Source: Opeltia flavorubescens (lineage: Eukaryota; Ascomycota; Lecanoromycetes; Teloschistales; Teloschistaceae). From it: a stretch of DNA of 64,000 nt. Position 1 is the stretch's first letter; each line of letters begins with the position of its first letter. A program made the position numbers and the translations under genes. Positions 539 through 61,257 of the stretch are shown piece by piece. A model generated the notes under the pieces. It was given only the letters and a program-made list of their open reading frames with translations. It did not search any database and was not told where the DNA came from. The stretch spans positions 581,889 through 645,888 of the forward strand of contig KE546982.1 in NCBI GenBank assembly GCA_000442125.1. Direction: 5' to 3'.

Positions 539-1498
539 CTAATTTTCTCGTCTCAAGATCTGCCGCCAAGACCTGTTCAGCCCTTCGAGATATCCCTTGG
601 AGTTCTCATGCTGGCAAACTAGATCGTCCCACCACGCGTTGAACTGAAATTCCGAAAGCTTTGTACCACCCTTCACCGCCACGCGAAGCCAGAACCATTC
701 TTTACCCAAGGTCAAGTCAAATGATCCCATGTCTAAGGAGGACAGTAGCTTTCGGAACTCGTCGTCGAGTGCCTGGCCTAGCTTTTCTATTCTTTCGAGT
801 CGAGCCAAGGCTTCCATTAGGATAAGTCTACCAGACTCAATCTCCGCCAGCTCGCTGTCCATCCGGTCGAATCGAGCTTGGAAGGTTGTGCTGAAGTGAC
901 CTACCCCTGGCAAGGGTGGTACGTGACAGTTGGCAAGTACTTTCTGCCAGGAGATTGAACTCAGATCTCGGTGCTCTAGTGATTGACTCCGATAATGGGT
1001 ATCGACAGCTTCGATTACTTGTTCATATGTTTTCCGGAGTCCAAGTACGTTCCTAGCGAGGATGTTGATTGTTGCGCTAGCTATGCTGGCCCTGGCGTAA
1101 AGGTTTCGATTCACCATCCCTGCATCGATTTCCTCGGAGGACCTTTTGAGCGCACAAGCCAAGTGATTAGAGAGTTGGAAATCGACGCTTATTACACTTG
1201 AGTTGGATGATACCTCCTGTTCTTGCAAATAGACCAAGACACGTGTGTCTAATACTTCAAGATCCTGTAGCCTTTGGAAAAATGGATACTTGGTGAGGGA
1301 TCGATTCAGCGGTAATTGTGATAGGTCTTCAAGCTTCAAGATAAAAGCTGAAACGGCAAGCACAGTACAAAGGGGCAAGAGGACGTATGTAGAGAGCATC
1401 GCTCTGAATCTCCGATTATTGCTGGCAAAGCAATTAGAGAAGGTAAGCCCCAAGCCTCTCGATTTGTGTGCCAAGCCGCTCCCCTCTGTTTTGGCCAT
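539..1498 (-). CDS. Single-pass membrane protein with helical outer domain (paralogue family A)
   Basis: A 319-residue open frame without introns. A short basic N-terminus (about 33 residues) precedes one strong transmembrane segment at about residues 35-56 (LLPLCTVLAVSAFIL). The rest is predicted helical, with a Leu/Glu-rich, coiled-coil-like stretch around residues 215-255 (LAEIESGRLILMEALARLER) and a Trp-rich end. The same order (short N-terminus, one membrane helix, long helical part, Trp near the end) is seen at 3747-4871, 15437-17011 and 23186-24551, so I treat them as one divergent family. I do not recognise a named domain. The start at 1498 is the first in-frame ATG and lies 97 bases from the start of a divergent gene. 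Orientation in the membrane cannot be told. Function unknown. Confidence 0.65.
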   Translation of the reverse strand: MAKTEGSGLAHKSRGLGLTFSNCFASNNRRFRAMLSTYVLLPLCTVLAVSAFILKLEDLSQLPLNRSLTKYPFFQRLQDLEVLDTRVLVYLQEQEVSSNSSVISVDFQLSNHLACALKRSSEEIDAGMVNRNLYARASIASATINILARNVLGLRKTYEQVIEAVDTHYRSQSLEHRDLSSISWQKVLANCHVPPLPGVGHFSTTFQARFDRMDSELAEIESGRLILMEALARLERIEKLGQALDDEFRKLLSSLDMGSFDLTLGKEWFWLRVAVKGGTKLSEFQFNAWWDDLVCQHENSKGYLEGLNRSWRQILRREN

Positions 1499-1595
1499 CT
1501 TTTATGGGCCGAGGTCAATCTCTCGAAAGTATACCTGGCGGACATATGCACATGACTACTCATACATCGTTGCGCTTCATAACGTGGCCGATACT
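1499..1595. promoter_or_regulatory. Short bidirectional promoter region between divergent membrane-protein genes
   Basis: Only 97 bases separate the start codons of the minus-strand gene at 1498 and the plus-strand gene at 1596, so both promoters must lie here or inside the neighbouring coding regions. No TATA box or known factor site was identified. The spacing suggests the two genes could be expressed together; that is inference. Confidence 0.35.
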
Positions 1596-2090
1596 ATGCA
1601 TCGTCTCTTGATCGTGATTACCAAAGTCTTGTTCGTCTGGCTTCTCCTTTCCCTAGGCTTGATATCAGTGTCCGCCTATTACTCCTCCGTGCAGCCGTAC
1701 GCTTCCATGAGTCCGCAGCAAGTGAAAGAAAAATCCTGGCCCGCTACTATCGCCGTGTGCTATCTCTGTCCATGTTTTCTGCTCGTCGTTGAGTGGATAA
1801 GGGACTTACAAGTGGGCTATAGAGGTCGACGCAGGCGCAACCCAACAGAACGTCAATCGAACCAGATCCATCAGTTTCCAGATTCTCTAGAGAGCGAGAT
1901 GATTCCCGGTCGTGGCACCGAAGACCAGCAGTGGCTCTACAGATACGGCGACCGTATTGTGGATACAGAAACACTACATCCCGATGACTCCATGTCTCAG
2001 AACGACTTTCGAGCGTTTCCCGCGGGGAATGTAGCTCATACCTCCCGACGTATACAACACCCAAGGAGGCGATATCAGAAAAGGTCTTGA
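1596..2090 (+). CDS. Two-pass membrane protein with Arg-rich tail (paralogue family B), probably incomplete as read
   Basis: Reading from the ATG at 1596 gives 164 residues. The frame stays open upstream to 1245, but that part lies opposite the coding region of the divergent gene and is rejected as a shadow. Two membrane helices are seen at about residues 4-29 (LLIVITKVLFVWLLLSLG) and 48-66 (ATIAVCYLCPCFLLVVEW), followed by a basic patch (GYRGRRRR) and a polar tail. The helix-loop-helix part resembles that of 12468-13999: both have a short loop with Pro-Tyr and a Lys/Arg-x-Trp motif before helix two. In another frame, coding-like sequence continues to 2394 and resembles the far end of that longer relative, so a missed intron or a frame break near 2090 is likely. 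Function unknown. Confidence 0.5.
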   Translation: MHRLLIVITKVLFVWLLLSLGLISVSAYYSSVQPYASMSPQQVKEKSWPATIAVCYLCPCFLLVVEWIRDLQVGYRGRRRRNPTERQSNQIHQFPDSLESEMIPGRGTEDQQWLYRYGDRIVDTETLHPDDSMSQNDFRAFPAGNVAHTSRRIQHPRRRYQKRS

Positions 2091-2383
2091 TCGGTGGCCA
2101 GAATAAGGACTCATCGATAAGGACTGGATATGGCTGGTTGATCTTGATCCAAGTCTTCAACGTCCGCGCCACGAAGTCGAGCAGATGCGCAGGAGATTTT
2201 ATCTGAACAACGAGCCCGAGATGAGAAGTACAGCGAAAAAAGTCCTTTCGTTGTACAGAACCCCGGAGTTCCATGCGATTGAATTAGTCACGTATTGGGT
2301 GGAGTCTGAATCTTTCGTTGGCCGCTACGACGAATGGCCGCGAGGTGTCCAAAGGCCACCTTCTCCAAGTTTTCAACCATCAG

Positions 2384-2683
2384 CTAGCCCATGAATGTCA
2401 CCTCACGGAGAGCCAGGTATTTGTTCCAGAGAATGGTGATGCGCTCCGTTGTCAAATGGACTGATGCACCAAAATGGAAGCCCGGTAATGCGGGTGAAAC
2501 CGAGCGTTTCCTAGCTAGGATAACCGTTCTTCTGCTTGCAGACCGAAGCATTTGAGTCCCCTGATATGTCCAGGATACAGCTGGCCATTGGGGCAGAAGA
2601 TTCTTCAGACAACCAAGACAAACACAAACATTTTCTACAAAGAGGAGGAAAAAAGAAAGAAGTCTAGAAAGCAAAGCTTTCAT
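2384..2683 (-). CDS. Small protein with signal-peptide-like N-terminus
   Basis: A 99-residue open frame starting at the ATG at 2683. The first 28 residues look like a secretion signal or membrane anchor (MKALLSRLLSFFLLFVENV), followed by a Cys-containing stretch and a C-terminal half (ERITILWNKYLALREV) of plausible protein composition. No family is recognised. It is convergent with the plus-strand gene ending between 2090 and 2394 and overlaps its possible end by a few bases. It could also be a 3' fragment of a larger gene. Confidence 0.35.
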   Translation of the reverse strand: MKALLSRLLSFFLLFVENVCVCLGCLKNLLPQWPAVSWTYQGTQMLRSASRRTVILARKRSVSPALPGFHFGASVHLTTERITILWNKYLALREVTFMG

Positions 2684-2826
2684 TTACGCCAAAGGATTGT
2701 ATATTATACACACGAAGACAACCCTACCAATGTCAAACTGTCTGTTCGATGAAGACATAATTCCCTCAAGCAACCTGAAAAGCCATTCTCTACCCACATC
2801 CTTGTCTCTCTTCCGCCAGCGCCAAC

Positions 2827-3099
2827 ATGGCAGACTTTACCAAATCGTGCCAGCTTGTCCCTTTCTCTTGCGGCCTTCAACGCCAGCTATCAAGCATCAA
2901 CCACTCATCACCCGCCTTTTCAATCCTCGCGTGCGCGGTAGCAGTAAATCGCAAAGCCGCAATACTAGTCTTCGATACTTGTCTATGGTACAATCAAGAG
3001 ACGAGAATCATCCGTGATGGTGCTGACTACGACAATGATTATGTCGGTGTAAGCGCTTGTAGCGACAGTAATCGGTATCGGACTTCGTGTGTGGGGTAG
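2827..3099 (+). CDS. Possible small protein, weak support
   Basis: A 90-residue open frame starting in a good fungal context (CAACATGG). It has a mildly hydrophobic middle (AFSILACAVAVNRKAAILVF) and several Cys residues. No family is recognised. Just downstream, about 3275-3445 in another plus-strand frame, another coding-like piece is seen (acidic, ending in two stops), so 2.7-3.7 kb may hold the remains of a longer gene. Long frames on the minus strand here look like shadows. Confidence 0.25.
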   Translation: MADFTKSCQLVPFSCGLQRQLSSINHSSPAFSILACAVAVNRKAAILVFDTCLWYNQETRIIRDGADYDNDYVGVSACSDSNRYRTSCVG

Positions 3100-3746
3100 A
3101 AACTCAGCATCTGAGGCGGGAGAAGGAGGTGAGGGAGGTTCATGCAGCAGGTGAAGATGCGGACGTAGGACGATACGGTTGAAGGCGGGGTCGGTGCGGT
3201 CTGTAGTCAATGGTGAGATTAACGGTCGGTTCCGGTATTCAAGAGATATTTTCAGGATAGAAGGATTGGAGTATGAGGACGTAAAAGCAAGAAAGCCGTA
3301 GAGCGTGACAAGGAGCTTGAGGTCGATGTTGTTGCTCTTTCGACCGTGCGGCGCAGTTATGAAGACAGCTTTGATATCTTTCCCCTACTCCGCAACGACC
3401 AATGCTACTATCCGACCACCGCAGGAAAGCTGCACGACCCTTTAAGCATCTAGTAGACAACGGCTCGGTAGATTTTTCGGAGGTGGCCACATTAGATTTG
3501 TCTTTTCCTGGAAGAAATATTCCAGTTGCATTTGACTTGTCCGTATCGACTGAAGGCATTGTCTCAATGTGCGAAACCGGCCAAATCGGTACTACGGTTT
3601 CCATTCGATCCCCGCAACTGCTGTTGACGTATTCATACATTCAAAACCTCCACACCCAGATTCTGTACATGTGGCAGATTATCCTCGAACTCCTACATCC
3701 AATCACACCTTGAAAAGATTGATTATATCATCTTCTCCAAGATCCA

Positions 3747-4871
3747 ATGGCAGATGCTAATATCGATCAACATACAGACATGCCAGATCCGGCCAGAGCC
3801 AGAGGTTCCAAATTTATCATCAGCCTATCTTTGATATTCGTATTGGTCGCCATTTCTATGATATGGATAGTTGGTGAGAAAACCGACGAAATCCCTCCTA
3901 TCGACCACTACAAAAGAGAATGTATACGATTTCTTCAATCCGTCGACGAGCTTCCCCATTTTCCTCTTCCACCTCCAATCACCAACCGTGTTCACGGTCG
4001 AAGTCTTCTCGATCTTGGTGTGCCAGAAAAATACGAGGAGCTAGAGAATGCTCACGCGAAGTGTTGTTCCACCTTTAAAGAAGTAGGTCGTCAGTGGGAG
4101 AAGGTTCTCTCTATGATCGCTCGGACCTATTCTTCGTCAGCCTTCGCCCTTTCCGACTTTGAGCTTGAGTACCAAATCGAAGTGTTGGAGGACCGATTCA
4201 AAGAAGCATTCTCGGCATTTAGCCATCTGGATGATCGTTCCAAGATCTTCGATGCTTACAGAGAATATACGGCGAGGGTCATCAATGCGGATACTGAGGG
4301 CCAACTTGATAACAAAGCTCGATTCGCAATTGCCCGACGCCACCAGGCAGGGGAATGGAAGGATAAAATCACTGATGGTGGCCCGAACAAAATGTGGCGC
4401 GACTTCAGTGCAAGAAAGGATACGATGCAAAGAGCGCAAGCGAGTTTGTCTGAGCTGGAACGTAACGCGATTAAAATGTCGGCGCTTCATGGAATGCTAT
4501 CAGAGATCTACAAAAGTCTCAAGATATTTAAGATAATGGCTGACCATTTGTACAACAACAAGAGTGGTGATTCTGACACTTCGGGTACTCGAACGGAATA
4601 CTGGATCGGATTATGGCATAACTTTCGACGTGAACCCCGAAGCGCGATATTCTCGCTCGGGCAGGCTACCTACAATGGATTATGGCGTGTTATTCAACGT
4701 GAGCCGCGACAAACGACTTCCTCGTTGAGGCGTCAACGAGTTCATTCAGCGTTTCAACAAGCCGTGCTACGAACCAATTTCTCAGAAGCTTGGACAAACC
4801 TAAGCGCAACGAGAGATGACGGCGAGCCTGGGATCGTGGTGAACATCAAGTTGGAATGGTGTGACTCATGA
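3747..4871 (+). CDS. Single-pass membrane protein with helical outer domain (paralogue family A)
   Basis: A 374-residue open frame without introns, starting at the first ATG in the frame. A hydrophilic N-terminus of about 25 residues precedes one membrane helix at about residues 26-45 (FIISLSLIFVLVAISMIWIV). A long charged helical part follows, with a coiled-coil-like stretch around residues 215-265 (ARKDTMQRAQASLSELERNA). That stretch aligns by eye with the same region of 23186-24551 (AKRDKVQAGIVACEAES), the best evidence for kinship. Near the C-terminus two copies of a 23-residue unit (GLW..F/I.REPR) come from a 69-base tandem duplication. The protein ends in LEWCDS. Function and topology unknown. 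It lies alone between two weakly coding stretches. Confidence 0.65.
   Translation: MADANIDQHTDMPDPARARGSKFIISLSLIFVLVAISMIWIVGEKTDEIPPIDHYKRECIRFLQSVDELPHFPLPPPITNRVHGRSLLDLGVPEKYEELENAHAKCCSTFKEVGRQWEKVLSMIARTYSSSAFALSDFELEYQIEVLEDRFKEAFSAFSHLDDRSKIFDAYREYTARVINADTEGQLDNKARFAIARRHQAGEWKDKITDGGPNKMWRDFSARKDTMQRAQASLSELERNAIKMSALHGMLSEIYKSLKIFKIMADHLYNNKSGDSDTSGTRTEYWIGLWHNFRREPRSAIFSLGQATYNGLWRVIQREPRQTTSSLRRQRVHSAFQQAVLRTNFSEAWTNLSATRDDGEPGIVVNIKLEWCDS
4608..4745 (+). repeat. 69-base tandem duplication inside a coding region
   Basis: Two diverged copies, starting at 4608 and 4677, keep the reading frame and add a second 23-residue unit (GLW, then REPR) to the membrane protein encoded there. 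Divergence between copies shows the duplication is not recent. Confidence 0.6.
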
Positions 4872-5340
4872 CTATGAACGCAGGTTGGGATGCACCTATA
4901 CAGATACTCCGAAATACTTTTGCTGCTCAGACGTTGCATGCTGAAATCTCTTCCTACGTCCGACTCCTACTATTATCGGGTTCGTCAGTCACACATCGGT
5001 TGTGCGGGGAACCTTTGTCCAAGTTCTACGAATTATTGGAGGGTTGCCTAGCTCGACTTCAACGCTACGACGCCACTGGAATCTAAGCAGGTCATGAGAG
5101 TTTGATTCCTTTGGGTCGAGCGTATCAAAACTTTCTTTGGATGGCCCTTCACTGCTTGGAGATGCCCGATGGTGGGAACCACAGGCACAGGAGTATCGTG
5201 GTCGCACCTAGTATCTGGAAGGTTGAGGCGGATGAACCTTGTGGCTTTATTGTCTCGCTAAGTCTTTGCGGTTCATCCAATTTTCCTCGACTAATGGTCT
5301 GGTCCGTAAATACTCCCCTCCGTGGCTATCTCGTCGTATA
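4872..5340. other. No confident gene; weak plus-strand frame
   Basis: A plus-strand frame of 72 residues (4868-5086) overlaps the stop of the upstream gene and has a fair composition (VRLLLLSGSSVTH, then a Leu-rich helix). It could be a 3' exon or a remnant; I could not tie it to a start or splice site. Confidence 0.2.
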
Positions 5341-6285
5341 TCACACTTCGCTACTCGTGTTGGAACTGTGAAGAGCCGAGCTGATGATGTATGTATCAGG
5401 ACGTAAACCTTCAAAGACCACAGACATGAACCTCTTGCTCAATGCCTGTGCTTGTGTCCAGCTCCAACACAAAAGCTTTTTCAAACCCCATAGCCAAATG
5501 CGTCTCCAGACCGCAGATACGATTTGTCCCCATGACCATTGCCGAATATTTGTCCAATCCCAAGACTCGTGCTGTCTCCGAACCCATTGCCAGATATCTC
5601 TCCACTCCCATTGCCACATGCCCCAAGCCCATCGCCAAATTGATGCCCAAATCGCAACCACATCTTCTCTCCACTTCCGCAGCGATACATATCCCCAAAC
5701 AGCTGATGCAATGTATCCCAACGAATCCAAAACCCCCCTCACACCATTGCTCAACGCCTGAAAGTCGCCCCGAAGGGCATTTCCAACCTCCCCCCAAGAG
5801 CATTGACCATCAGCACACAGATAATACAACTCAGTATGCCACATAGAAAACATCCAAAGATAGATTCCAAACCCAACAGGCACGAACCAACGCCAATGGC
5901 GGCAAATGAATCGCAGAGGGAATATCACCACGGGGACCCAGAATCTGATCTTCCCTCCTAACCGGCGCAAAACTCGAAGAAAAGATGCCCAAAAAAGTAG
6001 AAATCTCCCTTCCAAAGCTTGGAATAAGTCAATGGCTGCCTTGAACGAGTAGTACGGTACAGTTGCAGCCAGGATAAGTGGCCATACATTACTCCACAGG
6101 TCGAAGAGAAGCTGCCGGAGGTTTCCGAAAGGGCTGCCTGGTTCTGCGAATATTGTGAAGAATGTGGGGATGATGATGAGGTAGGTATTCCTGATCCATG
6201 CCCGTAGATCGATGGGGTAGTAGAATTCGTCGCGCCGGGGCTCGGGACGGCGAACTTTGTTGCTTGGCTTGGGATGGCGAGCCAT
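5341..6285 (-). CDS. Tryptophan-rich multi-pass membrane protein
   Basis: A 314-residue open frame with an intact start at 6285. A basic, Pro-rich N-terminus (about 25 residues) is followed by hydrophobic segments at about residues 34-48, 66-80, 95-104, 115-128 and 133-149. The striking part is residues 205-276, where 19 of 72 residues are Trp, alternating with Arg, Gln, Ser and Gly (WRWAWGMWQWEWRDIWQW). I count 30 Trp in the whole protein, near one in ten. The alternation suggests a slowly expanded repeat or an interfacial helix or strand. A related motif (EWRDI) recurs in the N-terminus of 9098-10124. No known domain is recognised. Overlapping frames on both strands are shadows of the Trp codons. 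Confidence 0.6.
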   Translation of the reverse strand: MARHPKPSNKVRRPEPRRDEFYYPIDLRAWIRNTYLIIIPTFFTIFAEPGSPFGNLRQLLFDLWSNVWPLILAATVPYYSFKAAIDLFQALEGRFLLFWASFLRVLRRLGGKIRFWVPVVIFPLRFICRHWRWFVPVGFGIYLWMFSMWHTELYYLCADGQCSWGEVGNALRGDFQALSNGVRGVLDSLGYIASAVWGYVSLRKWREDVVAIWASIWRWAWGMWQWEWRDIWQWVRRQHESWDWTNIRQWSWGQIVSAVWRRIWLWGLKKLLCWSWTQAQALSKRFMSVVFEGLRPDTYIISSALHSSNTSSEV

Positions 6286-7014
6286 ATTGCTTAGCTTGCG
6301 AGGGGAGCGAGGTAGTGGGTGAGGCGCTGGTATTGATAGGTTTTGACGAGTAATTGTTGGGAGGATTCGGCGTTGCTAGACAGATTGGTTGAAGGTAGGC
6401 ATTGAAGGGTCGGTGGGCGCGTTGAAGGGGGTGTCTGGCGTGTTCATTGGTTTCCGAAGGCAGACGTGTTTAGGAAATTGGGGTCTGCTCTGCGTGCGTG
6501 TAATATTGTAGGTCGGTTAGGAATAATATCAGTGGGTTTGCCTTGGGGCTTGGCTTGCAACGGCAAGTGCCGCTCGGTGTTTCCTGATTACGACCTTCGA
6601 ATAACGAACTATGCATATGCTTCCGCCTAGGTAATGAAGATCGTAGTTTGCAATTGGACTCTGTACCTTTTACTAAGTTTCTCAGGCCGTACAGATCTAC
6701 TATATCACACTCAAAAATCTCCCAAATTGAGCAGCGGACAGCGCAACACATCAGCAATGTTATTAATCGCAGTGGATGACAAGCTCGTTCGAATTAAGTC
6801 TATCGGCAAGAAGCACAAGTCTATTGCTAATTCAAGGATGTAAAACAGGACTCCATGGATCTGACAAAAAAGTTGCGGACAAAGTCGGACGTGAGCATAA
6901 TCCGTCGCCCCCAACAGTAACGGCGAACAGTATTCAGATAGCAACTCCCCAGCTTGTCGAGTATTTATGCGAGAATCGTATCCTCGATACTTGTTCCATC
7001 CTTTCCCCACGGAA
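6286..7014. other. Intergenic stretch, nothing recognised
   Basis: Several short frames exist on both strands but none has convincing composition or splice partners. It holds the presumed promoter of the Trp-rich gene and the terminator of the gene ending at 7015. Confidence 0.4.
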
Positions 7015-8340
7015 TCAGCGGACCTGTTTGCCGTAGTTTTTCCTAGGCTTCGCGGGCCCCCGACTCTCGTAATTGATTGTTGGTGCAGGATCGGACAAGA
7101 TGGCTGGAGGGCGGGCCAACCATTCTGAATCATTTCCATGCCCGCCTTTACCAGGTTGAACCCCACCAGCACTTGTGCTCACCTCTTCACTCAGCTGGCT
7201 TCCACCTAGATTCTGCACTGGTTTTCTCTTGCGGGCTTGACTCTTGCTGCCAGCTAATTCTTCTGGTGCAGCTTGTCCGACGTTATAGTGGATCCGCAGG
7301 CCTCGTAGCAATGCCGCTCCAAACTTATCACTTCCCGATGATTTGATCTTTTCGGGAAGGTTGAGATTGCCAAGATGTTGCTTGGCTAAATCCCAATGGG
7401 GACCTTCGGTGGATATTTCATCGCGGATACTAAAGACCGTTAGTGTGAAGGTGGAAAATCTGCTCGCCGAAATTAAGTCGTCGAGGAGGAAGGGGAGAAG
7501 AAGTCAGAGAAAACAGTCAGAGAAAACAGTCAGAGAAAACAGTCAGAGAAAACAGTCAGAGAAAACAGTCAGAGAAAACAGTCAGAGAAAAAGCACTTAC
7601 AAAGAGTCGCCCAGTCGGAGCCAGAGTAGACATCCGACGCCAAACTCGTTGCACAGAGCGGTGAGGTTACCTGCATGTTTTACCGCTCCCTTGATTGTAT
7701 CGCGCTTGATTGCTTTTCCGTAGTTCGCCAAGGTCCTCGCTTTCTTCTTGATATCTGCGTGCTTGGGCAGACGGAGCAACTCCAGGGCCATCTCATGGAG
7801 AACGAGGAATAGGAACTGCCGAAAAATTCTATCTTTTTTGGTTTCCCTTGGTATTACCTCAACATCAATACAGAACTGGACAAAGAAGGTCCGGTCAATT
7901 GTAGGACTTGTGGCTGGCAGCGTCATGTACGGTCGAAGGCTGGCCATTATATATTCGTCCGTGATGTCCCGTCGTTGGAAGCTTGCTAACACTTTATCAA
8001 AGGATTGGGGCGTATGAAGTGATGTTAGGTCGAGGATAACACCATTTGGTCGCCAAGCCGATGGTGTCGATGTGACTGGTGCGTTGTGTGAGATCTCAGG
8101 TTGGGTTTGTTTATCTGGACTCGTGCCACGAGTTTTAGGAGGCGTACACCCAAGTACAATGCGGTCTAGCATCTCTTGGTCATTTTCGGACTCTTCCCAT
8201 ATGGTACGACGACGTTTCCTTGGCGTCAAAGGAGTATTTGCGGTTTCGTTGCTATCAACGGGATCAGACTCCTCAGGAAACCGTGCCGCTAACTGTTTCA
8301 AGATCCGTCGATGTTCCGGCTTAACCGCCTCTTGAGGCAT
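7015..8340 (-). CDS. Unknown soluble, probably nuclear protein; intron enlarged by a minisatellite
   Basis: Two exons, 8340-7601 and 7459-7015, give 394 residues. The donor is a perfect GTAAGT and the acceptor is CAG; joining them restores one frame across the junction (GDSL then FSTFTLTVFSI). The intron of 141 bases is about three times longer than most in this window because it carries seven copies of a 13-base repeat. The N-terminus is polar, with a nuclear-signal-like RKRRR at residues 41-45 and Thr-Pro motifs; a helical middle (about 130-240) is Leu- and Lys-rich; the C-terminus is basic and disordered. No named domain is recognised. It could be a DNA- or chromatin-associated protein, but that rests only on the basic clusters. 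Confidence 0.7.
7502..7592 (+). repeat. 13-base minisatellite, seven copies, inside an intron
   Basis: The unit is AGTCAGAGAAAAC on the plus strand, repeated without change except at the last copy. On the sense (minus) strand it reads as a pyrimidine-rich array between donor and acceptor. Perfect copies point to recent expansion or ongoing homogenisation. There are no spacers, so it is not CRISPR-like. Confidence 0.9.
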
Positions 8341-8417
8341 TTCGTAAAGTTGTCTACAACCCTAATAATTATAAGTTGTTGTCATTGCAATTCACAAAGC
8401 TACTCGTACTTCGTCTG

Positions 8418-8828
8418 TCAGAAGTCTAAGAAATTGACTTCGCCAAAAGGTGGCCCGCTCCATATTAGTGACTGGTGCGGGAGGAGTCGCGTCTTGCTTG
8501 CTATCAGCTTCTCTTCCATCATTGAAATGCCAGAATAATACATACCGTAGGGACGTGGGTTAATCTCCATGGCGTTCATTCCTTCGTGATTCAATAGAAT
8601 AGCTAAGCGGTACGCAAGTCGCTGAAATTGGTACGTATGGACAGGAGCAGCAGAAAAGATGGCGGTAGTAGAAGACGTTGGAAAGCTGATAGCAGCAGTG
8701 GAAGATGAGGAGAAAATCTCGATACGGGTACGATGGATCATGATGTCGAAGCTAGAGTAAATTGGAACATAACAGTTTGGAATAAACAACACCAAAAGTT
8801 GATCCGAGGATTGAACATCCTTCATCAT
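8418..8828 (-). CDS. Possible small protein, weak support
   Basis: A 136-residue open frame with two Met codons at its start (8828). The N-terminal half is hydrophobic and Ser/Thr/Ala-rich (SSSSTAAISFPTSSTTAIFS); the C-terminal half (AYRLAILLNHEGMNAMEINP) looks more protein-like. No family is recognised. It lies just upstream of, and on the same strand as, the gene at 7015-8340, so it might also be part of that gene's 5' leader. Confidence 0.25.
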   Translation of the reverse strand: MMKDVQSSDQLLVLFIPNCYVPIYSSFDIMIHRTRIEIFSSSSTAAISFPTSSTTAIFSAAPVHTYQFQRLAYRLAILLNHEGMNAMEINPRPYGMYYSGISMMEEKLIASKTRLLPHQSLIWSGPPFGEVNFLDF

Positions 8829-9097
8829 CCATCATTACGGCTGTAATCTGAGGTCGAACCATAGAATGCTGTTAGCAGATCAAGAGCTGATTGTCTTTCG
8901 ACTTCCGTCTTGCGAATCTCGTCCATTTCGTTCCAGAACCGTCATACGGCTTGTGTTACAGATTGAATATCACTGGACTGCTATCGATCGCCAACCTGAC
9001 AATGTCAGTGGTGTTCGCAGGTACGAAAATCTAATTACAGACTATCAGTGTTAAGTTCTTCTTGGAAATCCTCTCGCTCTCTATCAATTAGGAGGCG

Positions 9098-10124
9098 ATG
9101 GATTCCCTTGGTTGGAGGGAAATGCTTTCCATCGAATGGAGGGATATCGTTTCCTTAAGTCGTGAACAGCTGGCTTGGTTCCGTTGGGGAGATATGGCAT
9201 CTTTCGGTTGGGCAAGTACCGAATTAATCCAACAGGACCTACGCGAAGCCATCAAAGACGGTATGGTTGAGGCCATCCACTCGTTGGATCCGTTGATCCG
9301 GGACAACATGTGTTTGCTCTGCCCCGAGTTCCTGAGCAGCCATGCCTTTCCAAGTACTCCGCAAGAGGCGGCTGCCATGGCCCAGTGCGAGCTGCTTCTG
9401 AAGCATGCTACCTGCTCTGCACGACATCTAATATTACCTCAAATGATATCACCCACCACATTCGCAGATGTAGGGACTGCTGTGATCGCAGTAGTCGGCA
9501 TCGTTATTATATGGAAAGGCGTCGGTCCTCGGTCAAGGAGAAAGGTATATCGACATTGACTGCGCAGATGAATGATCCAAGCTGACTTATATAGACGGGC
9601 AAGGTGAACCGCTGGAGGCAGAAGCGCAATGAGATGAGGCGATGGGTGTATGGTGCAATGCAAGGACAGGTGACCATCACCTCTTATCACGTATTTCAGC
9701 TGAGAGCTTACGGATAGTGCGGAAACAGCATTTCCCGCGACTGCTTCCTTTATTTCGGAGAGCGAACAGGAATGTCCGAGTTGTAGATGCTGTCGAGGCA
9801 CACACCCTAGGTGACGATGCAGCAACGCCACATACCAGCGGCATGGAGCCAACCAACCATGCGTCAATCACTACACCGTCGGAAAACTCGCGTGGCGAAG
9901 TGGGAGACTTAGCAACGCAGCCAGAGAATCGTGTTGACCCAACAACGCCGAAGACTAACGCCAGAAAGCCAGTGAATGATGCAGCAAACGGTCAACTGTC
10001 AGACAAGTCAAGGCGAGAGTTGCGTTTCACACCTTCCCCGAGGCGTACCGATCGTATGAGCAAGTCCCCATCCAACAATGCTCGAACTCCAAGAAGCAGG
10101 ACGAACAAGAAGAGCCACAGATGA
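9098..10124 (+). CDS. Tail-region single-pass membrane protein with Trp-rich N-terminus and basic, Thr/Asn/Pro-rich tail
   Basis: Exon one (9098-9544) is clear: a 42-residue Trp-rich start with a loosely repeated W/R/D pattern (LGWREMLSIEWRDIV), a soluble part with several Cys, and one membrane helix at about residues 126-142 (VGTAVIAVVGIVIIW). The donor GTATAT at 9545 and acceptor TATAG at 9594, with a CTGAC branch site, join it to a strongly basic exon (9595-about 9669). A further long frame (about 9705-10124) adds about 140 residues rich in Thr, Asn, Pro and Arg. The second junction needs either an unusually short intron of about 35 bases or a different pair of sites, so the exact model between 9595 and 9705 is unsure. 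Function unknown; the N-terminus recalls 5341-6285. Confidence 0.5.
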
Positions 10125-10303
10125 TGGAGACAAGATTAATCTTGGGCAGGGATTATGGGGCTGTGAAATCGATGCAGATTAGTACATGCTTCACAGTACC
10201 TCCACAGCAATCCTCTCGGCAGTCGTTTCACCGTTCTGAGCGCATGATGCCAGCATCTGGCTCCGGGATCTCGGCTGTTTCAAGAATGAATCTGATACGT
10301 CTC

Positions 10304-14909: not shown

Positions 14910-15436
14910 AGATGTCATCAGTCCGTCGCTTGACTACAGATAGCCAGTTCAAAAATCCTCATTGAGACTTCGCACTATGGGAAGCTGCGTCCGGTGACCT
15001 GAAGCAGAGTGCTAAGTTGAGTTGTCGATTTCTGATAATTTTTCAGGCAAAAGTGATTTGAAATTAAAATGCAACTTCCAATCTTACTAGCAAGGCTTTC
15101 CTTGCCTCTCTTTAGCACAGCTCTTTTTAAGTCTTCAAGAATCCTCTCAATCTGACAGTGATGTTTCATACAGTATCGACACTGGCAGTCACCTGCCAAG
15201 CCCATGGAATGACGACCTCGGTCCGTGCACACACCGTCGACTGCATTCATTTACTTCAAAGTATCAGGTCATCTTTAGTCTTATTTCTATCCTTGCGACC
15301 TAAGCAGCCCCAGCAGTGAAGCCAACAACTGTAGTCATCATTACGTTGAGGCTACTCTCAACCATTATCATCCTAGAGAACCAACGGTAGCTATACCATC
15401 AAGTCAAGCAAACTTCATGCACCATTTCCAACTCCA
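14910..15436. other. Intergenic stretch with a weak minus-strand frame
   Basis: A minus-strand frame (15250-14975, 91 residues) starts with ATG and has a Cys/His cluster (CQCRYCMKHHC) followed by a helical stretch. It may be a remnant of a zinc-binding protein, but no matching exon was found. The last 150 bases should carry the promoter of the gene at 15437. Confidence 0.25.
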
Positions 15437-17011
15437 ATGGCTCCGAGAATCATTCAGCGAGTGATACAGGTAGCTGGAACGCTGCTAGTGTATTATTTTA
15501 TGAAAAAGCCGGTCCGTATTGCCAGTCGAAGTAGGTTTACGGACTGGATAACTTTCAGCTTTCTTGCCCAATTCTACCGCTATGCCGGCGCTCTTATCGC
15601 GACTTTTATCCTCGTACCGTTAGCTTTGATCTTACTCTGGTGGCGTATTACCTCCCAGGGCTGCCAGATACATGGCATCAGAAATCAATTGGGCAGAGTC
15701 TGTATACTAGAACTCCCACAGGAGTCTTCGTGGTGGAAAAGTTCGTGGGAAGACCCAAAACACAGTCGAGATGATGTTTATCCTCTTCCTTCAGCCATGG
15801 ACAAGATTATGACCGGTCACATCTTTCTCGAAAATGCTCAGGTAATATTCGTCGATTGGCGCAACAAGCTTGGCGAGAGACAAGGCGAGAGACATATACA
15901 AGGCCCTGGCTTAGATGAGTTGAAGATGAATATTAGTAAGTCATTTCTTGATGGTGGCTCTTGGTCATGAGGAGCTCGACTGACCGACTACCTTGTTAAA
16001 GCCTCCGTCGTAAATGAGCTCCAACCATTAGCACAGCGGATAGATGACTATTCAGAGAGATTATGCATCGATCAGGACCAACTCCTTTATGCATCTCGCC
16101 ATCTGATTAATGCGATTGCAATACCGATAACGATGCCTCTGCAAGAAATCACTGTCCCATCATTGATAATCTACCCTATGCGTCATTTCCTCAGAGCCCT
16201 CAATGGTGCTGCCAAGATTCGGTGGCTGCCTCAACCAACGATCTATCATTTCCAGGCCTATGCAGAGATCAAGTTCCGTATGGATAGATTCACACGGGGC
16301 GCCACAGCGGCCATGACGAGGATGACATCGAGTTTTTCAACCGATGCTGTGCTCCGTGAACGTTCGTCCTTATCCCAGACTTTCACACCGGTCATCAACA
16401 TGTTAATCGGGCTTGAGTCAGCGCTCGAAGAACGGATCAAAATGTGTTATCGAATCGATGTGCCGTGCCGTTGGAAGAATGGAATTGCAGCAACGGAAGA
16501 CTTCTTAGCCCAGATCAGACGCATTCGCTTCTATCTTGAAGATGTACTTGCTCATTATGACAATATCGTCCGCTTTATCGAAAGCCAGAACGCAAAGCTT
16601 GACAGCTTGAAGGAGCAGCTCAGAAGTCATTCTCTGGTACTCCCATCCAGAAATCTGGCGGATGAGTTGATTCCATCGCCTGCTGAAGTCGACAAACATG
16701 AAGGTATTCCGGCTCAGGCTCTGATATCAAAGATAGGCCAGACGTGCGCAACGAGTGATGGAAATCAATACGTCTCAGACGGATTGGCTTCACTCTGCCT
16801 CATATACAACATGGCAACAGTCTTCCTCGATGTTCACGACGACAGCCTGGGTGCAATTCCAAAGAACTGGTCCAACGCAAGAAGAGCCGCGATTGATCGA
16901 GAAAAGAGACGATTGAAAATGGATCCAGAGAGTATCTACCTCCTCTTAATTAAGAACCACAAAGCTCATGAATCGGCACGTCGATCCTATGGTGTCGTTT
17001 CCGGCAATTAA
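15437..17011 (+). CDS. Single-pass membrane protein with long helical outer domain (paralogue family A)
   Basis: Exons 15437-15935 and 16002-17011 give 502 residues. The donor is GTAAGT, the branch region GACTGAC and the acceptor TTAAAG; the join (KMNI-T-SVVNEL) restores one frame. An N-terminal soluble part is followed by a membrane helix at about residues 51-70 (AGALIATFILVPLALILLWW). The outer part is helical, with a charged segment (about 360-390, VRFIESQNAKLDSLKEQL) matching in position the coiled coil of its relatives. A second hydrophobic stretch near residue 420-445 (LASLCLIYNMATVFLDV) may be buried rather than membrane-spanning. It is the longest family member in the window. Function unknown. 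Confidence 0.65.
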
Positions 17012-18960
17012 TGCGTACTCGACGTCTGCTTTGAATGCGCTCCCATTTCCCTTGTTTGATTTGCACTGGGATTTTACAAGACGCGGAGCCTCGATCTGGT
17101 TGGGTTGGATCTCGCTCCCGCTCTACTCAAATCACTGCTCACGGTATCATCAATGCGATGGGCAATTTCCTAGGCCTAGCGAGCCCCATCGCGTCAGGTT
17201 ACACACCAGCTGTATCGTGACGCAGCTGCCAGATTTTGAACTATGCTCACATTGTTGACGTAGTCTTCTTGCAGATGCGGTCAATTCCTGTGAAAGGCCC
17301 TCGATCGCTTAATTTTCATCAACTGCTGAGTTGAATGGCAGCAGTATTCAATTAGAGTCGTGTCTCCTTTAGCAACAAGAAGAAGGGCGGTGGATTGTGC
17401 TTTCCAAATGGAAGGATTTGGTCCAGAAGTACGGCGTGATTTAGTTCTTTCAATTCGATTCGACGATAGCAGATCTATCAGTCCCTCCAACGATTTTCTT
17501 ATCCATTGCGTAGCGTCGTGAGAAAGACCATGGCTCTCGATACTTCTTGAAATGAGTATGGCGCGGTGCGAGTGGATCGAATGATCCATAAGCAGGTAGT
17601 GGAGTAGATAGAGTAGGAAAAATTGACCGTCTGTTTTCCACAGCATCCTTTGAATTTAGCCCTAGCTGGTGGAGAGTTAATCTGACGCCATGAAGTCCGA
17701 GCGAGAATGACATCGTGATAAGTCAGACAAAATTAATGGCGTGCTCAATATGGGACAGAGTTGTTTTCTCCCTAGATCGTCGCGATTATCTTGGCACCAT
17801 GGCAGTAGATACTGTCATCGTAGTAGATAAGAGTCGGAGTTGCAGCTGAGTTGCTTCTTATTGGCGTCTAGAACCTCCTTGCATAACCCATTCAAACTCC
17901 CCGCCAATCTCTCCGTGTCCAGCCATCTCTTCCCATAATCCCCTGATCTTGTTTCCCTCGGTACAAAAGCCCTGTCTAATGATTCACCAGATCTCTTTTC
18001 TCCACCCTGCCATCGGCACCGCAGCAAGAACGATGTGGTCGAGCAAGCGTCACGTCGCTAAAGCTTTGCAAAGATCGACTGGCTGCCATATGGTATCGGT
18101 GGTGCCTCGAACGCAGGTCACCTCCCTGTCCGTCCATTTTCTCTCCTACCATGCGACCCCACCCTTCGTCATCTCCTCTTGAGCATCTCATGGAAGGACC
18201 TGAGCCAGGTATTATAATCTTTGTCGTAGAAGCCAGTGTCGGAGATATTCGCCGCTTCGTGGATCATTTTTGATTGAGATGTGGGAAGAGTGGAATCCGA
18301 AAATCATCTATGGCTGAGGATGGTGCGGTATGGGAAGAAGTACGGGTTTTCTGAGAGATAGGTTGAAGCGGTAACAGTGATTAGTGCTGGCTATAGAAAA
18401 GAAGGTTAGCTTCATTCACTTATTTCAAACTAAGATAAATTTGGGGCGGAGACGATCGTACGTACAGATTACCATTACTGTTGTCCAGGGCTATGGAGTA
18501 CTGTACACCTTCAGTCAGCCGGCTGAAAGGAAGACAGTCTTGTAGTAAGATACGATCTGGTAGACGGTGTAGTATAAAACATGCTTACTGGAGTTGTACC
18601 GAAGATCGCAAGGGTTGTAGGGAAATAGTGCAGCGTTTCTGGTCGAGCTATCTGGTCGAGCAGGACTGCCGCGGCGTTTATTGATATTTTATCACAGCCC
18701 AAGGAAGTGCTAGAGAGAGTCAAAGAAGTGGATGAAACCGCGAACTGAGAATAATGGAATGTTATTGGGTGTGCCACTAAATAATTCTTTGTTCCTTTGT
18801 TAGAATGAATTTCCGCGCTTTTATCAGATCTGACAAACTTTCTTTGTTCGAAAATGTCGTCTTCCACTTAGATATAGCGATGACCCTGTATTTTAATTCC
18901 AGACATCTATATTCCGCGTACTGGATAACTCCAAATGATGATCCTTCTTCGATATGACCC
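17012..18960. other. Gene-poor stretch, nothing recognised
   Basis: Short frames on both strands (for example at 17035-17220 plus, 17281-17646 minus and 17815-18027 minus) lack convincing composition. Possible remnants of a family A 3' end may lie around 17150-17220 on the plus strand (NAMGNFLGLASPIASGYT). No RNA gene or repeat was seen. Confidence 0.4.
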
Positions 18961-19089
18961 ATGATCAGCAACGCTACTGAAGGGAGGTTCGGCCCGAACC
19001 TTATTCTGCCACCAATAAGAGCATCGTATTCTTCATCGTATGACGTAGTTTCTGGAGTCTTGCGACTCTCGGCGGTGTACCTCTGGCAT

Positions 19090-20508
19090 CCTGTTCCATT
19101 ATCTCCTTTTGGTTCAATGACTTCCTCCCGACCTACCTCTGGTATCTTGCCACATGCAGCCCACGGGGCTTTTATCCGCCGACCAAAGAATAATCCTATC
19201 TGGAAACGGCTTTCTCGGCAAGGCCCTAGACCTGCGATTGTGAACGTTCGAATCAGACCTCTCCTCAGCCAACGTTATTACTCCGTTGACCTCCATACCA
19301 CCTATTGTCTTCGACGGCACCCTCACGCGACTGTCGCTGCCCATGAATACCCAGCACTTGTAGCACGCAAGGACAGTATTATCAAATCAAGTACAAAGAG
19401 TGACTACCCTACGTCTCGAATGATTTCAACTTTACCTGGCTAATTTATCCACTCTAGAAAATCACCAGTCCATTGGTAGCTGGGTGGACGATTGTGTAAA
19501 CATTGTCGCAGCTCTTAAATGCGGACTGCGTGATATTACGACCTCCTTTATCAGTTTCCTGTATTCACCAGCGCCACTACTATGCTACTCCCCACGCCGC
19601 CGCCTTGCCGTCTTGGTTGGTAGCGGCATGACGTTACGATGAATTCGCATGGGTGGTAAAACCTCGAATGAGCCTTTATTATCCAACAAATCATGCGCTT
19701 CCTTCGTACACAATCAAAGAAGCATTAGCCAGACGTGCTGAAAAGAGGAAGGAGGCGCCCAGTGAGATGAGAGCATCAGCCAAAATTGCTGAGCCGCCGG
19801 ATCTTAAGAGCGGCAGGAGCGCAGCAACTGTTGCAGTTGAAGCTGGGGATGGGTTACAACTATACATCGTCGGGAATCCTATCAAGTCACGTCGGTCCAC
19901 GATAGATGCGAGGCAATGAGGCTAGATAAGGCCTGACCTTCCGAGAAACGATAGCCAATCTAATCACAAGCTGTAGCCAAAGAATATCACGCCAATGGAA
20001 AGAATCAGTCGAAGCCTATATCGATCGATCTAGCTATCGCACCAACAGCCATCGTAATGAGTCACCTTATTATCGACCTGGAATTCCACCACCTTCCCGT
20101 CGGCCTACTCTGCCTTCCCGTCACGGTCTTTCCTACCTATATCCCGTCCAACCCACGCTTCTCCTACCTCGATGCATCATGTCAATCTCAGGCAGCTTCT
20201 ACACGGCAAGCTCAACAGACTATTGTTATCAAAATTTCAGATCGCAATCCACACTCGACCGTATCAACCCCTTTCGAGCTTGTCGCACCACCACAAAACA
20301 GACTGAGAAGCTCTGCAGAGTCACGGTAATGCTATGCTACTCTTGAATAAGGGAATGGAGGCTCGCTAATTATTCTTGACCCCAGTCTACTTCCATAGCC
20401 TTAATTTCAGCCGCCTCGCGCCTTCTCTTCCTCCTCCTACAACCTTCGCAGCACTTTGATGCACCCGATATGCTTTCTTTGGCACCATTTTATCATGGAT
20501 CATGTTGA
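19090..20508 (+). pseudogene. Decayed or mis-assembled multi-exon gene, family unknown
   Basis: Several plus-strand pieces look coding but do not join into one frame. 19120-19360 reads well in one frame apart from one TGA (GNGFLGKALDLRL then TFESDLSSANVITPLTS), as if a CGA had changed. 19445-19640 adds a hydrophobic piece (DDCVNIVAALKCGLRDITTS). The clearest exon is about 19924-20325, a Tyr/Arg/Ser/Pro-rich frame (SSYRTNSHRNESPYYRPGIP) that ends in a good donor GTAATG; a 60-base intron with a CTAAT branch site reaches CCCCAG at 20385. The next exon runs to a stop at 20508. Beyond it, to about 20698, another frame has an Arg-Gly-rich stretch. An RNA-binding RGG protein is possible but unproven. 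Confidence 0.4.
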
Positions 20509-20699
20509 GACTGTCGTGGCAAGAGGAGTAAGGGAACGTGGAAGCTATCAGAGAGAAGGACATTTGGGGAGACGGGCCCGTGGGCGAACCACGGCAAAGT
20601 CGTCATGACCTAGGCGGAGCGATATATCATGGAAGAGGTGGTCCCCGAGGTATTATCGCCCGCCGCGGACGATCTCAATACCAGCCTGGGTTTCCCTGA

Positions 20700-21010
20700 G
20701 GCAAATAGGTCGGTGACCCTTCAAGTTTCCTGGGGCCATGATTGTGAGGTCAACGTCAACGAATGCACTGTGCTGATTTAAGCTCTTTGTGTGTCTCCCT
20801 TTCAATGCAGATTTCCGTTCTGATACAAAGGAACTGAGAAGTGAATGAAGGGTGGTCTTATCGTAGATGTAAGTCAGGTCTTTGGAGATTCATACCGAAA
20901 AGCTCTGCTGGAACGCAGAACCGTCGCTCAGCCATCCTTATGCCCAGAGACTTAGAATAAATCGTGACAATTGTCGTTCACAGCCAACCTCGCTCCCGGA
21001 TCACAGCTTC
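20700..21010. other. Intergenic stretch between convergent units
   Basis: No gene is seen. It lies between the end of the decayed plus-strand gene and the end of the minus-strand nuclease-like gene. Confidence 0.4.
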
Positions 21011-22394
21011 CTAATCCTTGTACTCACCATCAGGAGGGTCTACTTCATCGCCGCTTTCATTGTCTGACTCTTCTTCTGGGATGCTGGATATTGTGGAGTC
21101 CGATTCGTCTGATTGATCGGAATCGTACTCGTATCGATCGGGCTCTTTATCCTGGGCCTCACGCTTCTTCTGCTCTAGCTTCTCATAGACCGCTTGAGCG
21201 GCTTGGCCGTAAAATGATGCAAGATCGATCGTCACACAATCGGTATCCGTTGTACCATCCCGCGGCTCATCCATTGACATCATCTCTGCCTTGTTTATGG
21301 TGAAGCTCGCCTGTGAAGGTTGAGAAGATATATCCTCCCCTCGGACAACCCAATTCTTCCTGATGACAAAGCGCCCGGGTCTTGTGGGGCTTGGGTCAAA
21401 ATGCTTGACGCATTTGATGACACTCGCTAAGATGCGGTATTGCTCGTCGGGAGCACCTCTGATCTTTTGAAACTCAAACGCGCAAACGATCTTCACTTTC
21501 GCCTTGGTCCATTTGACCCATGCCCGGATCTTGCTCCTGAAATCTGCCAAGCTTTGCGCATCCTTCACTTCGAGGATGAGAAACGGATATTCGGCCCCTG
21601 AAAGACTATACGAGGTATCTGGCCGCCGGTTAAAGCGTGAGTCGTCTTTGTACACTAGGGTTCTCTCTTTGCACCGCATGTCAGCTGATCCATATTCCAG
21701 ACTCAGGAGGCTCTGACCTACCTGCTTCTCCTGTAGGGACAACCTTAAGCGGGGTACCATTGTCCTCGAACTTAGCTGTAATCAGTTTTCCATAAATGAT
21801 GGGGCCGATTTCTTTAGCGACTTCGTGCCCGAGCTTAGCCATAGTAACAACTATGCAGGAGGTTGGAATTGGACGTCCAGGGACCGTAATCGATTTGTGA
21901 AACTCAAGAAACGTACGGCGTGCGTCGGATCGAAGCTTGTATGAGCATAGAGTAAAGTATTCAGCTCGCGTGGCTGGAATTAGGAACCGATCGTCACCGC
22001 TCGGAAAGACCGGGTATGCCAAGGATCTTTCGATGTAGTCAGCGTTGCATCGGTACATGATGGTATACTGAAACCTATACCTAGTCTTTGGGGATAGATT
22101 GTTGCCTACACAAACTCCATAGGTGGCATTGATGATGGAAATCGTCTGTTGCTTTCGTTGCCTTGCTTGGAGATGCCTTCTTCGCTGGCGAGGTGTCTTT
22201 ATGGGACGTGAGGGTAGCTGTTCCGGGTGTTCAACCTGCCTCTCAGCTGCCACGGCGGGCGATAGCGGTGATGTACTACAGGAGTCATCCTTTTGTGCTG
22301 CCGGTGTAGTCGAGACTGGAGAAGTCGATGACGAAGTAGCAAAGGAGATCTGCGACTGATCTGTCTGACTTTCGAATTGCTTGGGTGAATCCAT
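21011..22394 (-). CDS. PD-(D/E)XK nuclease-like protein
   Basis: Exons 22394-21722 and 21666-21011 give 442 residues; the 55-base intron has GTAGGT, a GCTGAC branch site and AAAG acceptor. The N-terminus is Ser/Thr-rich with a basic patch (PRQRRRHLQARQRKQQ). The core of the second exon shows the nuclease pattern: Pro-Asp at residues 240-241, then a hydrophobic strand with Glu-Val-Lys at 257-259 (PFLILEVKDAQS), followed by an amphipathic helix and a strand (VKIVCAFEF). This spacing is typical of PD-(D/E)XK folds such as restriction endonucleases. The tail is very acidic (DSDQSDESDS). Fungal genomes carry many such proteins of unknown role. An earlier ATG-less extension to 22400 is rejected. 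The fold assignment is by motif only. Confidence 0.6.
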
Positions 22395-23185
22395 TGCCAC
22401 GGATGAACGTCGGTAATTATAGGAACCGCAAGCATGATATGAATACCGTCTTCACAAGACCTAATTACAGGTGATGAGCTTATCTGATACCGACAACGGG
22501 CAGGGTTGGCAAGTATCGTTATTTCCCAGCGTACTTTACACACCGACCCGAAATGATTATGACACCACACGACTCGACCCGAGGATGCAGTAGGGCAGCT
22601 GAAGTTAGAAAGATTGATCGTGTAGGTACTGTGAATGTTAGAGACAACCGGGGGTGGTAAGGTGAGTCGGGACATTCTCTAACCATATTAGTCCTAGTGT
22701 CTCGGAATCCCATCTGTGGCTTTATTTACTAGTCACTTCCTATCATCAACCAATGATCTTTCCAACACCATCGGAGCCCTGTCGTCCTTCCAGCCGATTA
22801 AGATATCCTCATTTGTCATTCAAGTATAGAATAGCAACAGACTCGAGCCTTCGGTACACAACTTTTCGAGACCGAAGTTGAAAATCATGGCAGTAAACGA
22901 CACCGGTCTTGGACATGGTGCCCTGTCGACGGTTAGATCTACCTTCAACTAAGTCCTGAATTATTGACACTGTTTAAACAATGCAAGACAGGTATTCAGA
23001 CATTCATTGAATCAGAGACCCTCAACCGACGCGGCGGAACTTGATCACCGCATCGATTAGGCAATTAAAACGCCCGCGTTTCCTCAACCTATCGACTCCA
23101 CGGCTACCTGACTCTACTCGCTATCCATCGATATCCATACGACTCCAGATTTGCGCCAAACCCCCACGTCAGAGTTCATACCATC
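22395..23185. other. Intergenic region between divergent genes
   Basis: A minus-strand frame from 22675 overlaps the start of the nuclease-like gene in another frame and could be a 5' exon or a chance frame. Otherwise nothing is seen. The region holds the promoters of the genes starting at 22394 (minus) and 23186 (plus). Confidence 0.35.
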
Positions 23186-24551
23186 ATGACGTTATTGGCC
23201 GAAGGCTTCGACATTGAAGAGTTCGCCGCAAATCTTCAAGGGCTCTCGCCATCGAACAACGAGGTTAATCTGGACGAACATGCCAGCGAGGTCCCACGGA
23301 ATGAGCTTGCCAACGACAACCTACAGAGTGAACCTGCCGACGAGAACCTGCCAAATAGACCTGCCAATGAGAACCTGCAGAACGGGTCTGTCAACGGGAC
23401 TTCACGGGACTTCACGGGGTGAACCATCCCATGACAACTTACAGAGTAAAGCCGCCAATTCGAACCTTCAGAACGGTCCGGAAAACGATGTTCCTTCACC
23501 CGAACGACTCTTGAAGTCTCCAAGGCCTTCGGAAGCTTCATTTTCGCCGAAGATCTTGCTCCTTGTTTTGCTAGTTGTTGTTGTCATTCTTGTCATCGCA
23601 TGGAAACTCCCCTCAGTGAACAAGGACACACTCCCTTTGAGCTCCGGCAGTGGCCCTGTGAACTCCTCTTCCATGGATGCAGATTGTATGAGTCTCCTGA
23701 ATTACCTTGATTCACTAGGACCGATTCCCTCTGCTCGGGGGCCATCGTAAGACGCTCACCGAGCCGTTCTCAAGGAGTTGAACAAAACGAAGATATTGAT
23801 AGATATCGAAACGGTAAATACGGGCATCAACTCGACGATTAGCACTATTGGCGATCAATTTCTCAGCTTCTTTAGTAATGTAATTTCGATCTTCACCTCT
23901 ATAGCCAACATTGTTACTCCCAAGAATGGTTTCTGTACGCTGGACGAACAGCTTCTTAAAGCGAGCGACCAGGTGAATGCTTGGCTCAACTTCTACAGTA
24001 GCTTGTGGAACGACTATCTCCTTCTTAATACAACTGCATCCCTCCAATACGAGTCTTTCGTCCGCACAAAACTTCTGTACCCTCTGGCCAACCACAAGTT
24101 CGTAGGTTACGTAATAAACTATTTGGTCAAAGACGCTGATGAGGCGATGGTTGCTTTTGAGAACACTTTAGCGAAAAGAGACAAAGTACAAGCCGGCATT
24201 GTAGCGTGCGAAGCAGAGTCAACGCATCTAGTGCGGCTATCTGAAATGATTCAGGAGGTGGGCCAAGCCCTATATCAATTTCGGCAGGCTATGAACGCAG
24301 AATACCCTCATATCACATCCCCGAACCGAGCGCGTCTCTCCGACCCTCGAAAGGAAGACCAAGCGAAGCGGCAAGAGACGCGTGAATGGAAGCAGGAGCA
24401 GCCGCTGGAGTGGCTTCAGCGCCACATTATGGAGAATAATGGACTGAGAGAAAATTGGATCAAGTATGTTGCGCCGGTAGACAACCCAGAAGGATCGTTT
24501 GAATTAGTGTTCGACCAGCAATGGTGTAAGCAAAATTCGAGTAGGGGATGA
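23186..24551 (+). pseudogene. Broken single-pass membrane protein gene (paralogue family A)
   Basis: The start at 23186 opens a frame with an Asn/Glu/Pro-rich repeat of about 10 residues (NELANDNLQSEPADENL). At about 23397-23418 a 10-base tandem duplication (GGGACTTCAC twice) shifts the frame; the same repeat continues in the next frame (EPSHDNLQSKAANSNLQNG), then a membrane helix (ILLLVLLVVVVILVIAW) and a Cys-containing segment. A TAA at 23748-23750 interrupts this frame, which then stays open to 24551, giving the helical outer part with a coiled-coil-like region (AKRDKVQAGIVACEAES) close to that of 3747-4871. A splice across the TAA was tested by eye; the apparent GTAAGA donor leads to the wrong phase. 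So two changes separate it from an intact gene of about 450 residues. Confidence 0.6.
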
Positions 24552-61226: not shown

Positions 61227-61257
61227 TACGGATCCGTTACGAATAAGGGGGATAACG

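Follow-up and report, generated by a model that had tools for sequence, protein, structure and literature searches.

Remote kin among predicted single-pass membrane proteins on a small, accessory-like chromosome of a probable lichen fungus

The DNA analyzed here, referred to as the window, is a stretch of 64,000 nucleotides at positions 581889-645888 of C18, a contig of 870,562 bp that makes up 2.5% of a genome of 34,397,415 bp in 23 contigs. It contains four genes, g1 to g4, which a sequence-only reading had proposed to encode a cluster of related membrane proteins, each with a short polar N-terminus, one membrane helix and a long helical part behind it. In our analysis these genes fall into three families, namely A (g2 and g4), B (g1) and C (g3).

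The open frames proposed for g1, g2 and g3 were recovered. The g1 gene (539-1498, minus strand) encodes 319 amino acids, with a polar N-terminal part, one membrane helix (residues ~38-56) and the sequence WWDDLVC in the C-terminal part; divergent from it on the plus strand lies a partner gene (1596-2090) of 164 amino acids, for which a Pfam search returned no match. The g2 gene (3747-4871, plus strand) encodes 374 amino acids, in which the membrane helix (residues ~24-42) is followed by Cys58, with EWC at the C-terminus. The g3 gene (15437-17011, plus strand) encodes 502 amino acids once a predicted intron is removed: exon 1 (15437-15935) contributes an N-terminal hydrophobic part and the motif CQ....R..LG..C, the putative intron (15936-16001) offers a GTAAGT donor, a CTGAC branch-like site and an AG acceptor, and exon 2 (16002-17011) completes the frame. 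The g4 gene (23186-24551, plus strand), previously described as broken, is indeed disrupted at two places, by a frameshift and by an in-frame TAA at 23748-23750. Its first piece (23186-23422) covers the polar N-terminus up to the frameshift and closes with a TGA at 23420-23422 that adjoins a 10-bp tandem repeat at 23394-23418; the second piece (23280-23750) contains the membrane helix and the CMSLLNYLDSLGPIPS motif and closes with the TAA; and the third (23751-24551), which groups with g2 in family A, has QWC at its C-terminus. When the first 26 kilobases (kb) were subjected to 100 base shuffles, the longest frame was 287 amino acids (mean 170), a length surpassed by g1, g2 and exon 2 of g3, and not by any single piece of g4. 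One strong N-terminal hydrophobic stretch (hydropathy 2.1-3.3) was found in each of g1, g2 and the second piece of g4, in agreement with the proposed shared plan; the plan does not extend to all of family C, however, where two of the four first exons have two N-terminal hydrophobic peaks. A Pfam search of g1, g2, g3 and the third piece of g4 returned nothing above the cut-off.

Relatedness was examined by iterated profile searches of 637 frames. Starting with either g2 or the third piece of g4, these searches converged on an identical set of nine frames, while g1 as the start gave six and exon 2 of g3 gave four. Families A and B were joined by profile-profile comparison with a score of 54.9 (expectation value, E, 1e-6, over 157 columns), which was reached in none of 100 column shuffles; the best shuffle scored 20.9 and the reversed control 20.1, and the same comparison with a different alignment gave a probability of 86. 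When 98 frames were ranked, B members came 1st, 2nd, 5th and 14th once A was excluded, and A members 1st, 2nd and 4th once B was excluded. Thus g1, g2 and g4 look like remote kin in one superfamily, while family C, and with it g3, appears to be a look-alike of similar plan that lacks a sequence link to the other two. The kinship claimed for all four genes is therefore retained by profiles for three of them, whereas the scores of g3 are within chance. Several results weigh against an overarching relationship. The profile-to-sequence signal between A and B is weak (the best A match of the B profile had an E of 0.0066, and the best B match of the A profile 1.2), and with the B profile most A members rank 26th or lower. 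Family C was linked by profile comparison neither to A (score 17.7, as high in 11 of 100 shuffles) nor to B (15.1, as high in 28 of 100). The place of A and B members in the ranking of 98 frames, 1st, 3rd and 4th among those outside C, was discounted as a link of g3, since a large share of the remaining frames is probably non-coding. Elsewhere in the window, a gene at 5341-6285 encodes a tryptophan-rich, strongly hydrophobic protein with no Pfam match; considered as a family C relative, it was absent from the matches of the C first-exon profile up to an E of 5.

Each family retains short motifs of its own. Members of family A have a cysteine behind the helix as part of a motif like CNTILASFDTPQRLPY, and a pattern written from the family A sequences, which overlooks looser forms in g2 and in a relic on C21, finds this type of motif in five of the 637 frames, all of them family A. 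The family A C-terminus is EWC or QWC in four of six members, and the C-terminal cysteine is present in five of the six aligned members, being absent from the one at 556 kb of C18. Near the end of family B, WW..L.C occurs in three of four members, with WWENLIYQC in the fourth (503 kb), and CQ....R..LG..C is found in all four members of family C. The aromatic C-terminal residues that had been noted are hence real motifs in A and B, but none was seen in C. Two peptides of g4 and g2 that had been aligned by eye do belong to the same segment, although MAFFT shifts their register by about three residues.

The copies have diverged extensively, as had been asserted. The g2 protein is only 14-19% identical to the other five family A rows in the alignment, which is far beyond what recent tandem copies would show. 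Among 11 paralog pairs of A, B and C, the ratio of nonsynonymous to synonymous divergence (dN/dS) was 0.27-0.42 in eight, with dS at 1.5-2.6 and upper bootstrap bounds of at most 0.60, and in the other three dS was saturated. The fast divergence claimed earlier is borne out in that even the closest paralogs have a dN/dS of ~0.3-0.4, with dS near saturation. Values of 0.27-0.42 are higher than is usual for ordinary fungal genes. The ratios must be regarded as rough, given how close dS is to saturation and that bootstrap samples in which it was saturated were set to zero. Between paralogs, codon position 2 differs least, position 1 more and position 3 most in eight of nine pairs; the ninth departs from this only in a tie of positions 1 and 2. 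This pattern shows coding constraint.

Signs of copying and of decay are both seen in the wider genome. The block of g1, its partner gene and g2 recurs on C21 at 276-280 kb, with order and orientation kept and with stops, which indicates that small blocks have been copied. The pair of g1 and its partner is also seen at C21:277 kb and C18:505 kb, where it likewise contains stops; C18 has paralogs of g1, and C21 and C17 have relics that are short or broken. A C17 relic and its C18 relative are 80% identical in DNA over 384 bases. Repeat-induced point mutation (RIP) was considered for this relic and is not claimed, the excess of C-to-T changes against the C18 relative being mild (38 changes of C to T or G to A, and 20 in reverse). 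Pieces at C19:605-608 kb resemble C18:590980-592009 and C18:598838-599143 and may be the remains of a copy of this part of C18 that has decayed.

The distribution of the families across the genome is markedly uneven. Whole-genome protein searches, in which only the best candidates were scored, so that site counts are lower bounds, detected at least 25 family sites once pieces of one place were merged, 16 on C18 and nine elsewhere. Those on C18 belong to family A at 288, 330, 491, 556, 585 (g2) and 605 kb (g4), to family B at 275, 503, 520, 582 (g1), 667 and 686 kb, and to family C at 302, 336, 566 and 598 kb (g3). Elsewhere, family A was found at C21:279, C17:319, C10:1485, C10:1524 and C5:268 kb, family B at C21:276 and C17:78 kb, and family C at C16:128 and C19:606 kb, the latter covering 31 residues only (E 0.009); a weak A match at C20:591 kb (E 0.09) was excluded from the count. 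At 13 of the C18 sites the frame is open over 300-464 amino acids (for C, exon 2), and all frames of at least 300 amino acids that were found are on C18. The remaining C18 sites are the broken g4, the 667-kb match with four stops, and the 275-kb match, located inside a reported frame of 2447 amino acids that may run through Ns. Each match off C18 is short or has stops, although the search ignores introns and a stop there could in principle be intronic. The presence of 16 of 25 sites on 2.5% of the genome has a chance of 5e-20 if sites are independent, an assumption that duplicates violate. A further point on the opposite side is that the queries come from C18, so that C18 paralogs are favoured. 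The clustering that had been proposed is thus supported on the scale of one small chromosome, but a location near chromosome ends is not, the four genes being separated from both ends of C18 by 264 kb or more.

The first 800 bases of C18 open with 15 CCCTAA repeats, and the last 800 close with 15 TTAGGG repeats. C18 is therefore a complete, small, linear chromosome as assembled, with N runs inside; the largest contig seen has 2.8 megabases. Telomere-type repeats also start C1, C5, C16, C19 and C21, and not C22 or C23, and no closing telomere-type repeats were found at the right end of C21. At an E of 0.01, Pfam matches were obtained for three of 20 non-family C18 frames (228-522 amino acids), which were picked from 75 of 566, to the exclusion of members of the families, frames of the window and any frame that spans two stretches; in the window itself, two of ten frames were above the Pfam cut-off. 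A core control of eight frames from 20 kb, which is small for a comparison with C18, gave Pfam matches for three of the eight (two genes), on C6, and none above the cut-off on C1. A DUF7924 gene in the window (31784-32857) has 21 genome matches including itself, with 10 on C18, seven on C19, three on C21 and one on C1, the first three of these contigs together accounting for 6.8% of the genome. Three matches, two of them on C18, were obtained for another orphan C18 gene, itself included. Concentration on small contigs is consequently not peculiar to A, B and C.

Searches beyond this genome were directed at a database of ~5.8 billion proteins, which was queried with three inputs, namely g2, the family A alignment and a control gene at window 47518-50286. 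No family A relative was found there at an E of 0.01, either with g2 alone (1772 candidates) or with the alignment (7083 candidates), in a search that requires shared five-residue words and relies on gene predictors that may have overlooked such genes in relatives. As g2 itself was not returned, this genome's own g2 must be absent from that database. The control gene (923 amino acids) retrieved 27 proteins including itself among the 7992 candidates scored, those with the most shared words; 17 relatives have lichen-fungus names (Caloplaca, Gyalolechia, Seirophora etc.; 36-49% identity), seven are named Penicillium or Aspergillus, and two are nameless. These relatives carry PF27653. Caloplaca and Gyalolechia are Teloschistaceae. 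A taxonomy look-up places Seirophora villosa in the same family. The matches in lichen fungi make it probable that the genome is that of a lichen fungus of the Teloschistaceae. When profiles of A, B and C were compared with PDB structures, nothing better than an E of 0.03 was obtained, and none was convincing. The sequence-only reading had named the joining of each protein to a different known family as the outcome that would speak against it; none of the four genes could be assigned to a known family. The group formed by g1, g2 and g4 looks like a previously unseen one.

AlphaFold2 models of g2 (with the third piece of g4 as second row) and of g1 alone had a mean predicted local distance difference test (pLDDT) score of 49.8 and 41.8, respectively, both too low in confidence for a fold comparison or fold search. 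The proposed helical part behind the membrane helix is matched by a low-confidence prediction in the two genes modelled, g2 and g1. The longest helices in these models (g2 213-270, g1 200-254) span the last stretch of the A-B alignment, to which we give little weight.

The placement of these proteins in the cell was approached through charge, motif and glycosylation. In g1 and g2 the polar N-terminus followed by a hydrophobic stretch (residues ~24-56) fits an anchor, and cleavage as a signal peptide appears less likely than retention as a membrane anchor. Over the 15 residues that precede the helix, net charge is positive in five of the six A copies on C18 (g4 included) and in two of the four B copies, and charge is higher before than after the helix in four of six A and three of four B copies (7/10 together). 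Behind the helix, family A has 22 N-glycosylation sites where 11.9 would be expected (P 0.005, with members treated as independent), the count for g4 being taken from part of its third piece only. Charge, the conserved cysteines and the family A glycosylation sites point weakly to an outer or lumenal C-terminal part, and the topology of the superfamily is probably N-in (type II). Other counts detract from this placement: charge is not higher before the helix in three of the ten copies (330, 288 and 520 kb); N-glycosylation sites are hardly in excess in B (9 vs 6.1, P 0.17) and not in C (5 vs ~7, exon 2); the 0.05 level is reached singly by one of 14 sequences; and the B frames at 503, 520 and 686 kb have no in-frame methionine before the helix stretch, or only inside it, leaving their starts unsettled.

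Taken together, we regard it as slightly more probable than its opposite that g1, g2 and g4 belong to a lineage-private superfamily of single-pass membrane proteins, with g3 as a look-alike, and that the chromosome they share is accessory-like, in what is probably a lichen fungus of the Teloschistaceae. In such proteins the part behind the helix would lie outside the cell or in the secretory lumen, clasped by one cysteine near the membrane and another at the C-terminus, and may form a long helical bundle. New copies would be generated when small blocks of several genes are duplicated; they would then diverge under weak constraint, and those on other chromosomes would decay. As for their use, the likeliest, though short of probable, would be display of diversifying outer domains for the recognition of self and non-self, of a partner or of a parasite. 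A bolder extension appears rather unlikely to us, namely that C18 is a lichen-fungus accessory chromosome with a private, diversifying surface repertoire, possibly for conflict among nuclei, strains or partners, and that the short and broken copies on C5, C10, C16, C17, C19 and C21 are traces of repeated past exchange with C18.

Much of the same evidence could be produced by non-adaptive drift, in which old genes on a weakly constrained chromosome experience weak purifying selection and have no special role in recognition; we regard this as a serious contender, albeit short of probable. It would account for dN/dS values that are not above 1, for two C18 pairs of other families with similar or higher ratios (550k-698k, 0.58; 478k-497k, 0.35), and for the breakage of one of the four window genes, whereas the 13 frames still open in A, B and C, the constraint by codon position, and the cysteine motifs kept at low identity are less readily expected of it. 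Independence of the four proteins, which would then have no more in common than a membrane helix and helical sequence of low complexity, is very improbable. It holds for g3 versus the others as far as can be judged from sequence, but is refuted for g2 and g4 by their convergence on one family, and is opposed for A and B by a profile score above all shuffles and the reversed control.

The confinement of the 13 long open frames to C18, with short or broken copies elsewhere, would also be explained if the proteins served the chromosome itself, as membrane or nuclear-envelope proteins aiding its persistence or drive, and the telomere repeats that bound C18 agree with this. Such a role nevertheless seems distinctly unlikely, given that the window genes have no known domain above the cut-off, that the glycosylation excess of family A suggests the secretory pathway, and that there are many diverged copies.

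Regarding known systems, accessory chromosomes are best known from plant pathogens. Like those of Zymoseptoria, Colletotrichum and Magnaporthe, C18 is small and telomere-bounded, many of the frames tested on it are without a Pfam match (17/20), and it shares the DUF7924 family with other small contigs; unlike them, its host is a probable lichen fungus, and C18 is known from one genome. Among the titles and abstracts listed for accessory chromosomes or Teloschistaceae genomes, in a literature from which most subscription papers are missing, none describes an accessory chromosome from a lichen fungus. A Letharia study raises the question whether its contig 1 is an accessory chromosome (PMC10512270), and a review names plant pathogens (PMC7385547). 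The divergent and partly broken copies of A, B and C resemble the families of fungal allorecognition (heterokaryon incompatibility), and a role in recognition is possible; g1, g2, g3 and the third piece of g4 differ from those families in having no Pfam domain above the cut-off, incompatibility domains such as HET, NACHT and NB-ARC included. Secreted or surface effector-like families are similar in that A, B and C are apparently lineage-private, cysteine-bearing and fast-diverging, but differ from these proteins, which have a likely membrane anchor and a long part behind it. If the proposal holds, it becomes testable in a probable lichen mutualist whether accessory chromosomes also play a part in symbiosis or in self/non-self recognition among fungi. 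The stronger finding is that of location, i.e., long unbroken copies found only on one small chromosome and short or broken ones elsewhere.

A few other features of the window and of C18 lie outside the families. An AT-rich block (window 54001-64000, extending to ~C18:662 kb) has a GC content of 15-37% and a TpA/ApT ratio of 1.2-1.4; situated near 632-662 kb, it is the sole such block in the 258 kb of C18 that were read (462001-720000), and may be centromere-like or RIP-mutated. Outside the window, a frame at C18:541037-542569, translated in part, resembles, by a motif, a cysteine protease of the ULP1 type, and has a relative at C18:713 kb. Within the window, 28100-28725 holds a run of ~480 Ns with adjoining GCATGCATCACTTGATACCCG-type repeats, and 43122-43787, which seems to be part of a conserved gene, encodes a fragment of a VID27 PH-like domain and contains a tandem duplication of 141 bp.

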